Translations under genes and position numbers: made by a program
In this document: piece by piece, positions 33,149 to 40,331 of the stretch
Position numbering within the stretch: position 1 is the stretch's first letter
Layout: each line of letters opens with the position of its first letter
NCBI GenBank assembly: GCA_013151865.1
Contig: JAADHN010000034.1
Coordinates: forward strand, 1-64,000
Reading direction: 5' to 3'
DNA length: 64,000 nucleotides
Source: Kiritimatiellota bacterium
Lineage (GTDB): Bacteria > Verrucomicrobiota > Lentisphaeria > Oligosphaerales > JAADHN01
Notes under the pieces: model-generated
What the model saw: the letters and a program-made list of their open reading frames with translations, nothing else
Database searches by the model: none
Told to the model about the DNA's origin: nothing

Positions 33149-33946
33149 ATGAGCCGCCAGATTCATCCCACGGCCGTGATCGCATCGGGCGCCGAGATCG
33201 GCGACAACTGCGTGATCGGCCCCCACTGCGTCATCGGCGACCGGGTACGGATCGGCCCCGGGACTCGTCTTCATTCGCATGTGGCGATCGAAGGTTCGAC
33301 GACCCTCGGCGCGGAGTGCGAGATCTTCCCGTTCGCCGCGGTCGGCTGCCAGACGCAGGACCTCAAGTATCGCGGCGGGGAGAGTTTCGTCGAGATCGGG
33401 GACCACACCACCCTTCGCGAATACGTGACGGTGAACGCGGCGACCGGGGAGGGCGACAAAACAGTGGTGGGCAGCCATTGCCACATCCTGGCCTACTGCC
33501 ACATCGCCCACGACTGCCGGTTGGGCAATGGGGTGATCATGAGCAACAACACGCAGCTTGCCGGTCACGTGATCGTCGAAGACCGGGCCGTGTTCGGAGG
33601 CATGGGCGGCGTTCACCAGTTCGTGCGGATCGGGACGCTGGCCATGGTCAGCGGCATGGCTCGAGTGGGGCAAGACGTGGCCCCGTACTGCCTGGCCGCG
33701 GGAATTCCGGCGGGCGCGGTCACCATCAACCGGATCGGCATGGAACGTAATGGGCTTCAGGCCGATTGCATTGCCGCGGTGTCCCGGGCCTACCGTATCC
33801 TTTTCCGCTCCGGTCTGCCGGTGGCGGAGGCCGTGGAGCGGCTTCGGCGCGAATTCGCCGACGTCCCGGAAGTCCAACGCCTTGCGGAATTCGCAGAAAG
33901 CAGCGAACGCGGTCTCGCCCGCCCGAAAGGACGTGCTGAATCATGA
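33149..33946 (+). CDS. lpxA: UDP-N-acetylglucosamine acyltransferase LpxA
   Basis: The 265-residue protein catalyses the first step of lipid A synthesis, transfer of a 3-hydroxyacyl chain to the 3-OH of UDP-GlcNAc. It has the left-handed beta-helix hexapeptide repeats (IHPTAVIASGAEIGDN, VIGPHCVIGDRVRIG), TQDLKYRGG, the catalytic His at about 121 in CHIAHDC, and the C-terminal helical domain. Length is the family's. It overlaps serS by four bases (ATGA), indicating translational coupling. It shows the organism has an LPS-type outer membrane. Confidence 0.96.
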   Translation: MSRQIHPTAVIASGAEIGDNCVIGPHCVIGDRVRIGPGTRLHSHVAIEGSTTLGAECEIFPFAAVGCQTQDLKYRGGESFVEIGDHTTLREYVTVNAATGEGDKTVVGSHCHILAYCHIAHDCRLGNGVIMSNNTQLAGHVIVEDRAVFGGMGGVHQFVRIGTLAMVSGMARVGQDVAPYCLAAGIPAGAVTINRIGMERNGLQADCIAAVSRAYRILFRSGLPVAEAVERLRREFADVPEVQRLAEFAESSERGLARPKGRAES

Positions 33947-37818: not shown

Positions 37819-38084
37819 CAGGCCTCTTCCGACCGAGTACACTTCTTCGCTCCGGGGCGGAGACCGTCCACCTGGGTCGTCATGCCTGGGGGGGCGGTCG
37901 TTTCTGCCTTTGGCCTCCATGCCCTGTGGCCGGGCTCGCCGCGCCCGCACGTCGGCCCGGCTTCCGGCTCGTCGCGGGGCGCCGGGGTCCGGGCCGATGC
38001 GTTACCGCTTTTCGGATAGGGAGGCGGTTCTGGGCACTGCCCGAGGCGGCCGCCGACACTTCGAACCTATTTGGAGTCCGACGC

Positions 38085-38924
38085 GTGAAACAGACGACCC
38101 TGCGCGGTCCCGCGGTCATTTCGGGCATCGCCCTGCACACGGGCAATCGGGTCTCTCTGGCGCTTCAACCGGCGCCGGCCGGCACGGGCATCCGGTTTCG
38201 GCGCACGGACCTGCCTTCCGGGCCCACGGTCGCGGCCCGGGTGGAAAACGTTGTGGATGTGCAGCGCGGCACGACCATTGCCGCGGGCAAAGCCTGTGTT
38301 CACACCGTCGAGCACCTGCTGGCGGCGCTCTATGCCCGGGGAGTGACGAATGCCTTCGTGGAAATGGCCGGTCCCGAGCCGCCGGTCGGGGACGGCAGCA
38401 GTGTGCCTTTCCTCGAGATGATCGACCGCGCCGGGGTCCGCACTCTCAAGGCATCCGCTCCCGAGGTGACTGTCGACCACCCGCTGTACCTCGAAGAAGG
38501 CGAGACGCGCATGGTCGTCGTGCCGGATGCCGAGTTTCGCATCAGTTGCACGGTTAAGTACGGCGGATCCGCCTTGTACTGTCAGTATCTTTCCATTCCG
38601 ATCACCGCGGAGACGTTTGACCGGGAGCTGTCCAAAGCGCGGACGTTTTGCCTTTACGAAGAAATCGAGGCCCTGATGAAGGCCAACCTGATCGTGGGCG
38701 GCAGTTTGGACAATGCCGTCGTCATCAAGGGCGATGCCGTACTGAGCAAGGAAGGCCTCCGGTATCCGGACGAATTCGTTCGACACAAGATGCTGGACAT
38801 CGTGGGCGACCTTTCTTTGGTGGGGGCTCGGTTGCGGGCCCATGTGATTGCGGTCAGACCGGGGCACCCGTCGAACGTGGCCCTGGCCCGGATGATTCGT
38901 GAAGCCGTGCACGTGACTGCGTGA
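38085..38924 (+). CDS. lpxC: UDP-3-O-acyl-N-acetylglucosamine deacetylase LpxC
   Basis: The 279-residue zinc amidase catalyses the committed step of lipid A synthesis. Zinc ligands and neighbours are visible: HTVEHLLAALYA, then the later DEFVRHKMLDIVGDL carrying His and Asp, with SLDNAVVI between. The N terminus KQTTLRGPAVISGIALHTG is typical. GTG at 38085 has GGAG 9 nt upstream. Many related bacteria fuse LpxC to FabZ; here a separate tandem FabZ-like gene follows after 149 bp, keeping that functional pairing. Confidence 0.95.
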   Translation: MKQTTLRGPAVISGIALHTGNRVSLALQPAPAGTGIRFRRTDLPSGPTVAARVENVVDVQRGTTIAAGKACVHTVEHLLAALYARGVTNAFVEMAGPEPPVGDGSSVPFLEMIDRAGVRTLKASAPEVTVDHPLYLEEGETRMVVVPDAEFRISCTVKYGGSALYCQYLSIPITAETFDRELSKARTFCLYEEIEALMKANLIVGGSLDNAVVIKGDAVLSKEGLRYPDEFVRHKMLDIVGDLSLVGARLRAHVIAVRPGHPSNVALARMIREAVHVTA

Positions 38925-39073: not shown

Positions 39074-40033
39074 ATGGCCGAGATCCTGACCTATGCCGAT
39101 ATGGAGGAACTCATCCCGGAACGGCCGCCGTTGTTGATGCTGGATCGGGTCCAGTTGGACACAGAGGGGCGGCGCGCAGTCGGCCTGAAGAACGTTTCAG
39201 TGAACGAAGCGTTCTTCACAGGGCATTTCCCGAACGCACCGATCATGCCGGGTGTGCTGCAGGTGGCTGCCATGGTCCAGGTCGGCGGCCTGCTGTTGGG
39301 GCGGCTGCTCGGGGATCGGGCACGGGGGTTTCCCGTTTGCACCAGCATTCGGCGCCTGAAATTCCGCAACCCCGTCCTGCCGGGCGACCGTCTCCTGGTC
39401 GAGGTGGAACTCGCCGAGGACGATACGCCGCCCGATCCGGCGGGAACGACCTTGCGGGCGGTTGTCCGCAAGAACGGCGTGGTGACCTCCCAGGGCGCCA
39501 TTCGGGTGACGTTTCTGGATGCGAGTGTGCTGCCGTCTCGCCCGGCCGAACTCGTTCCCGCAGATCCGGAGTTGCCATGGTTGCCTGCTTCGGACGATCT
39601 GCAGCCGGTGGACGTCGGGGGAATCATGCAGCTGATCCCGCATCGTTTTCCTTTCCTCTTGGTGGACGGGCTGATGCATCTCGACGGCGAGAATCAGCGG
39701 GTGGTCGGATTCAAGAACGTGACCGGAAACGAGCCCTTCTTCGCCGGGTGCCCACTTCCGATGGTGCCGCCCTACCTGCTGATCGAGATGGCGGCCCAGA
39801 CAGGTTGCGCCTTGGCCCTCAGCACCCCCAAAAACCAGGGGAAGCTCGGTTACTTCATGGCCATCGATGAGGCGACGTTCTCCGTGCCCGTCGTTCCCGG
39901 CGACCAACTCGTAATCGACATCCAAACGACCGGTCGCGGCCGGTTCGGCAAAGCCCACGGCAGGCTCTGGGTCGGAAACCGGGAAGTGGCCGTCGGTGTG
40001 CTGAAATTTGCCGTGATCGATCGCGAAAAGTGA
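39074..40033 (+). CDS. Tandem FabZ-like hot-dog dehydratase with split catalytic residues
   Basis: The 319-residue protein contains two FabZ-type hot-dog domains. Domain 1 (residues 1-150) keeps the catalytic His51 in FFTGHFP but has Ala65 where FabZ has its catalytic Glu (PGVLQVAAMVQ). Domain 2 (about 180-319) lacks the His (FFAGCPLP, Cys226) but keeps Glu238 (LLIEMAAQ). FabZ active sites form across the dimer from the His of one subunit and the Glu of the other, so the fusion could build one composite site. It may dehydrate 3-hydroxyacyl-ACP, sharing the acyl pool with LpxA/LpxC. GAGGGG lies 7 nt before the ATG. Confidence 0.85.
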   Translation: MAEILTYADMEELIPERPPLLMLDRVQLDTEGRRAVGLKNVSVNEAFFTGHFPNAPIMPGVLQVAAMVQVGGLLLGRLLGDRARGFPVCTSIRRLKFRNPVLPGDRLLVEVELAEDDTPPDPAGTTLRAVVRKNGVVTSQGAIRVTFLDASVLPSRPAELVPADPELPWLPASDDLQPVDVGGIMQLIPHRFPFLLVDGLMHLDGENQRVVGFKNVTGNEPFFAGCPLPMVPPYLLIEMAAQTGCALALSTPKNQGKLGYFMAIDEATFSVPVVPGDQLVIDIQTTGRGRFGKAHGRLWVGNREVAVGVLKFAVIDREK

Positions 40034-40046
40034 GGCGGGTCCGGAA

Positions 40047-40331
40047 ATGGCGGTACCCCTCAGGGAATTGGAAGGCAAGCGCTTTTGCGTGGTTTTTGTC
40101 AAGGTGCTCGATCCGGTCGGGGAACGGGTGAAGCTCCAATGTCTTCACGGTCGGGCCAGTATCGAGCGCGGACGCCTCAACGTGGTGCACGAGAGCGGAG
40201 CGGTCTTTACCGTGCCGGGTTCGGCCCTCCCGAACGTCTTGCCCAATGACGGGACGCAAATGCTGCGGGACGCCGACTACTTTGTGTTCGTGAAAACGGA
40301 CGAGGACATTGAATTCATGTCGCCGAATTGA
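40047..40331 (+). CDS. Small protein of unknown function (94 aa)
   Basis: A 94-residue, predicted mainly beta protein (FCVVFVKVLDPVGERVKLQCLH, RLNVVHESGAVFTVPGSALPNV) ending in an acidic segment (YFVFVKTDEDIEF). No signal peptide, membrane segment or cysteine cluster is seen. It starts 13 bp after the tandem FabZ-like gene, so the two are probably co-transcribed. I do not recognise the family. Codon usage and position make it a likely real gene. Confidence 0.6.
   Translation: MAVPLRELEGKRFCVVFVKVLDPVGERVKLQCLHGRASIERGRLNVVHESGAVFTVPGSALPNVLPNDGTQMLRDADYFVFVKTDEDIEFMSPN

Follow-up and report, generated by a model that had tools for sequence, protein, structure and literature searches.

We have found a tandem FabZ protein whose two halves have lost complementary parts of the active site. 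Its gene lies in a 64,000-nucleotide stretch of DNA (the window; contig JAADHN010000034.1 of assembly GCA_013151865.1) from a Kiritimatiellota bacterium of the class Lentisphaeria. On the evidence of residue conservation and a predicted fold, the protein is very probably the housekeeping dehydratase FabZ of a type II system, in the form of a fused pseudo-heterodimer with one His51/Glu238 site per chain. An active site of FabA or FabZ combines a His from one subunit with an Asp/Glu from the other: in FabA the two residues come from separate subunits, and the Glu-His dyad of FabZ, an enzyme that normally forms a trimer of dimers, corresponds to this pair (PMC2698920). In the arrangement that we propose, the two hotdog domains of one chain would pack like the subunits of an ordinary FabZ dimer. 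Domain 1 would give the His loop GHFPxxPxxPG, domain 2 would give the Glu helix ExxAQ and the PHRxPF loop, so that every chain would contain a single complete site. Its mirror image, at the positions of Cys226 and Ala65, would be dead. Coordinates of the gene, its domains and its key codons are collected in Table 1.

Table 1. The tandem FabZ gene, its key residues and its neighbours in the window
Feature	Position	Strand	Basis or observation
lpxA, about 5 kb upstream	33149..33946	+	TIGR01852, 326 bits (cut-off 231)
lpxC, upstream neighbour	38079..38924	+	TIGR00325, 233 bits (cut-off 187); PF03331
Tandem FabZ gene	39074..40033	+	319 aa, stop-free ORF; PF07977 and TIGR01750 matches
Domain 1, about residues 8-148	39095..39517	+	Pfam FabA match at residues 14-115; hotdog in model; predicted to supply GHFPxxPxxPG
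His51 codon CAT, predicted catalytic base	39224-39226	+	His in 70/70 tandem proteins
Ala65 codon GCT, position of the FabZ Glu	39266-39268	+	70 proteins: A 33, E 32, G 2, S, M, T
Gln69 codon, Gln of domain-1 ExxAQ	39278-39280	+	Invariant, 64/64 in Lentisphaeria
Domain 2, about residues 180-317	39611..40024	+	PF07977 match at 39635-39991; model; predicted to supply PHRxPF and ExxAQ
Domain-2 PHRFPF loop, residues 189-194	39638..39655	+	P, H, R, P and F each 63/63; domain-1 equivalents variable
Cys226 codon TGC, position of the FabZ catalytic His	39749-39751	+	His in 8/70 only
Glu238 codon GAG, predicted catalytic acid	39785-39787	+	Glu in 70/70 tandem proteins
94-aa protein, directly downstream	40047-40331	+	47-67% identity, 30/31 genomes searched

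The Pfam family PF07977 (FabA) matches the protein twice (whole-protein E 5.9e-42, 143 bits against a cut-off of 23), and the protein reaches 214 bits with the NCBIfam fabZ model TIGR01750, whose cut-off is 155. The two domains share 34% identity over 102 residues. PF01575 (MaoC) stays under its cut-off (22.8 bits against 27), and no type I PKS/FAS dehydratase family of Pfam matches at E 0.01. The score for the bifunctional LpxC-FabZ protein PRK13188 is also under the cut-off; lpxC ends at 38924 and the FabZ ORF starts at 39074. Taken singly, neither domain holds both the His and the Glu expected of a FabZ domain, and the pair is found only when both domains are pooled. A preliminary description of this DNA had assigned His51 to domain 1 with Ala65 in place of Glu, and both codons lie exactly there. 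It had also described domain 2 as lacking the His and keeping Glu238; Cys226 and Glu238 confirm this, with the refinement that the entire His loop of domain 2 has been lost, GHFPxxPxxPG having become GC-PLP-VPPY, two residues shorter.

The split of catalytic residues is conserved among homologues. The His and Glu positions of domains 1 and 2 are referred to below as His1, Glu1, His2 and Glu2. Already in the first 47 sequences aligned, His1 and Glu2 were invariant and Glu1 and His2 variable. Our main count covers 70 tandem proteins from two classes, or 52 clusters when grouped at 70% identity. Every one of them has His1 and Glu2 (70/70 each), against 32/70 with Glu1 and 8/70 with His2. Both Glu1 and His2 have been lost in 38 of the 70 proteins, only His2 in 24, and both are kept in eight; loss of Glu1 with His2 kept was seen in none (0/70). 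Counted by cluster, the numbers are 27, 20 and five. The working pair is therefore invariant and only the opposite pair decays, which agrees with the reciprocal pattern proposed earlier; random residues at both positions were not what the homologues held. The motifs around these residues follow suit. Among 64 Lentisphaeria proteins, G50, H51, F52, P53, P59 and G60 of domain 1 are each present in 64/64, their domain-2 equivalents in at most 48/64, and in domain 2 E238 is found in 64/64 and A241 and Q242 each in 63/64. PHRxPF, complete in 63/63 in domain 2, is degenerate in domain 1. GHFPxxPxxPG is thus invariant in domain 1 only, and PHRxPF and ExxAQ are conserved in domain 2 only. This pattern lies far beyond chance. 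A broken FabZ or pseudogene was considered as well and ruled out by the pattern conserved in 70 proteins and by the sole gene copy.

The eight proteins with His2 are six symmetric proteins of Kiritimatiellia and two from Lentisphaeria (L136 and L153). In the latter two, the domain-2 His is kept and the Phe-Pro that follows it is gone; their second sites are possibly half-decayed, and the loss of His2 is accordingly not strictly universal in Lentisphaeria. Another protein, L037, has the domain-1 Glu although it sits inside the clade that lacks Glu1, which, like these two, counts against our preferred explanation. So does Gln69 of domain 1, which is invariant in Lentisphaeria despite the loss of the neighboring Glu and appears to be left unexplained by a simply dead half-site. 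Conceivably, although we think it unlikely, the mirror face has been reused for holding the acyl chain, docking ACP or regulating the working site, and the fusion has been kept for that purpose. The invariance of Gln69 would fit such reuse, as would the domain-2 loop, which is still partly Pro-rich (P232 in 48/64 in Lentisphaeria), and the precedent of HadAB, where one half binds substrate and the other catalyses (PMC4491049). The mirror loop is, however, free to vary in sequence and length between families, and no conserved new motif was found in it. Any role for the dead face is speculation.

An AlphaFold2 model of the window protein, built from a 46-row alignment, has a pLDDT of 94 and a pTM of 0.93 and contains two hotdogs, each with a central helix. 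Over the whole length, its best Foldseek match was 2cf2_C (TMq 0.76); single FabZ chains reached 0.40-0.43 and PKS dehydratases 0.53-0.63. The 2cf2_C entry is the 342-residue DH chain of a low-resolution mammalian FAS model, which we read, from its length (2 x 171) and its own matches, as two copies of FabA. Since this chain matched best and single chains lower, the domains are predicted to sit as a FabA-type dimer. The monomer model suggested in the preliminary description thus returned two hotdogs in FabA-dimer-like packing (TM 0.76 to 2cf2_C), and this packing, along with the invariant His1 and Glu2, supports the proposal that the halves pair into one working and one dead site. The symmetric tandem of Kiritimatiellia gave a weaker model (pLDDT 73), whose best match was likewise 2cf2_C. 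A viral structure search returned a weak thioesterase match and nothing else.

In the window's order, where Glu1 is gone, two first domains from separate chains would lack one member of the dyad; only a first with a second domain can complete it. Such a pair could also form between chains, domain 1 of one meeting domain 2 of another in a swapped or higher oligomer, with the fusion serving as a tether. This arrangement would conserve the same residues, could be permitted by the linker of 25-33 residues, and would suit an enzyme that normally forms a trimer of dimers (PMC2698920). The single-chain model, however, already packs both domains in the FabA-dimer-like manner with high confidence, and we regard a site between chains as quite improbable. 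From conservation and the model together, we infer catalysis and a pairing of His51 with Glu238 inside each chain.

The genome of the window contains both fabF and lpxA, so that fatty acid synthesis in this cell is very likely of type II and needs a dehydratase. The tandem gene is the sole PF07977 gene in this genome, which is 97% complete. No MaoC gene was found in it or in the seven relatives tested, and an overlooked MaoC dehydratase was ruled out by this result across the eight genomes. A pseudoenzyme or regulator, acting in ACP docking or as a partner of LpxC while another enzyme performs the dehydration, would be in keeping with domains that are each incomplete alone and with the lpxC gene that adjoins the tandem in about 30 examined loci. 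Such a role is nevertheless highly improbable in our judgement, given the sole PF07977 gene, the lack of MaoC and the strict conservation of His1 and Glu2 in 70/70 proteins, which a non-catalytic protein would not need. lpxC lies directly upstream of the tandem in those loci and in none of family f8, and its adjacency is common but not universal. In one relative (L012), lpxA directly follows the tandem FabZ gene. In the window, the neighbors of lpxA are genes for seryl-tRNA synthetase and a B12-dependent ribonucleotide reductase. Directly downstream of the tandem FabZ gene lies the 94-aa protein of Table 1, which was searched for in the window's own genome and relatives of its order; without a match in Pfam or NCBIfam, it is a nameless conserved family.

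Homologues of the tandem were found in 51 of 60 relatives, a few of the matches being partial. Full-length tandems occur in 48 of the 50 Lentisphaeria genomes sampled, the window's own included, and this frequency rules out an assembly artefact or chance fusion. Outside Lentisphaeria, one sampled genome of the phylum (G192, Kiritimatiellia) has a tandem, and FabZ in the remaining sampled genomes is single or fused to LpxC. None was found among 119 genomes around a Singulisphaera record, and a scan of genome contigs returned overwhelmingly ordinary FabZ and one named tandem. A few Lentisphaeria genomes, such as G023 and G024, gave no PF07977 match at all, a further point against our explanation; either such species can do without the gene or their assemblies have gaps. 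Three genomes of family f12 (G049, G053 and G058) contain ORFs some 2300 codons long, each of which matches FabA-type domains four times, alternately strongly and weakly, in the manner of PUFA synthase dehydratases.

In one Kiritimatiellia family, six genomes (L155-L160) encode a tandem whose two sites are both complete: each half has GHFP and the Glu, except that one of the proteins has GHFQ in its second half. Five of these genomes additionally contain a separate match to a single FabZ. At another locus (L135), the symmetric tandem adjoins a LolA-like gene, which suggests an accessory lipid role. The degree of symmetry changes with taxonomy: the Kiritimatiellia family is symmetric, Lentisphaeria orders other than the window's lack His2 alone, and in the window's order Glu1 is missing as well. 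In a careful domain tree covering the two classes, all first domains group together (100/90) and so do all second domains (99/95); the tandems are therefore explained by a single fusion, or by transfer of an already fused gene.

With the tandem tree rooted on the symmetric family, we infer the direction of the losses. This tree requires three changes of Glu1, namely its loss basally in the window's order (clade 100/96), its loss in family f11 and an apparent regain in L037; His2 is already missing in nearly all Lentisphaeria. The simplest order suggested by these sequences is stepwise, His2 going first, almost class-wide, and Glu1 later, at least twice. The series would have begun with a FabZ-FabZ fusion in which both sites worked, a form that the Kiritimatiellia family still shows. 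The domain-2 His loop of this fusion would then have been lost in the Lentisphaeria ancestor or early in the class, and the domain-1 Glu, made useless and so freed by that loss, would have disappeared later, once in the window's order and independently in one other family.

The preliminary description had proposed duplication, fusion and reciprocal loss. Reciprocal loss is upheld, as a stepwise process with His2 first. On duplication the evidence speaks neither way, and we give an even chance to an origin by the joining of two different FabZ genes, with domain 2 derived from the Verrucomicrobiota LpxC-FabZ lineage, rather than by internal duplication. Domain 2 does group with the LpxC-fused FabZ of Verrucomicrobiota (91/79), with domain 1 apart, but neither AU test rejects a single clade of both domains (p 0.11 for the careful tree; p 0.78), and the alignment offers only about 140 columns. 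A clear separate origin of the two domains, taken from a quick tree, was dropped when the AU test found a better tree with both together.

The window protein shares with the FabZ homodimer or hexamer of type II systems its sequence family and fold, the motifs GHFP and ExxAQ, the reaction expected and the place beside lpxC and lpxA. It differs in having two domains per chain, each without one catalytic residue, and in its single predicted site where an ordinary pair has two. In this it recalls the PKS dehydratase, where one half of a double hotdog gives the His and the other the acid, for one site per chain (PMC3422181). As in type I FAS/PKS dehydratases, the N-terminal half of the window protein has the His and the C-terminal half the acid (H51/E238). 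The spacing from acid to Gln is equal in erythromycin DH4 (Asp206/Gln210) and the window protein (Glu238/Gln242), and a Pro-Gly follows the His in both (Pro53-Gly54 and Pro59-Gly60; PMC3422181). The window protein, however, is a stand-alone type II protein of 319 aa with no megasynthase, it has Glu rather than Asp, and its halves are still recognizable as FabZ. Hydratase 2 and HadAB are pseudo- or heterodimers with a single site and both catalytic residues in one half (PMC4491049). A single shared site is thus common to hydratase 2, MFE-2, HadAB and, by prediction, the window protein, which differs in having one residue per half and no MaoC match over the cut-off; NCBIfam also includes a fused HadA-HadB, a MaoC-type double hotdog. 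The FabA-like DH tandems of PUFA synthases combine a pseudo-domain missing one residue with a core domain that has both (PMC9667614). They differ in lying within megasynthases and in a loss that is not reciprocal. The LpxC-FabZ fusion (PRK13188), long known (PMC516016), likewise couples FabZ to lpxC, and domain 2 groups near its Verrucomicrobiota members, but in the window LpxC is a separate ORF and FabZ is joined to a second FabZ. By its sequence, we therefore file the window protein as a FabZ, one that would function in the manner of a type I dehydratase. Solutions of this kind are already known from type I FAS/PKS dehydratases, and no description of a stand-alone FabZ version was found in the open literature. 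Open papers likewise yielded nothing on tandem or fused FabZ, or on FabZ in Lentisphaerae or Kiritimatiellae, and among solved structures no naturally tandem FabZ chain was found.

To our knowledge, multidomain enzymes with one live and one dead half are many, and the intermediate steps have usually gone. Here the symmetric, half-decayed and fully reciprocal forms of one fused enzyme survive in related bacteria, so that ordinary enzymology can test in which order the parts were lost and whether losing them was neutral or useful. On balance, we favor reading these forms, from Lentisphaeria and one Kiritimatiellia family, as surviving stages of one history: a homodimeric type II FabZ would have been fused, at first keeping both sites, and would then have shed its half-sites one after the other. 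Free-standing enzymes would thereby have repeated independently the route by which type I FAS/PKS dehydratases became single-site pseudo-heterodimers, and the resulting protein would today serve most of the class as its main or sole dehydratase of fatty acids. The finding also carries a warning for annotation: each domain, taken singly, looks like a broken FabZ, although the whole tandem probably serves many of these species as their only dehydratase for making fatty acids.
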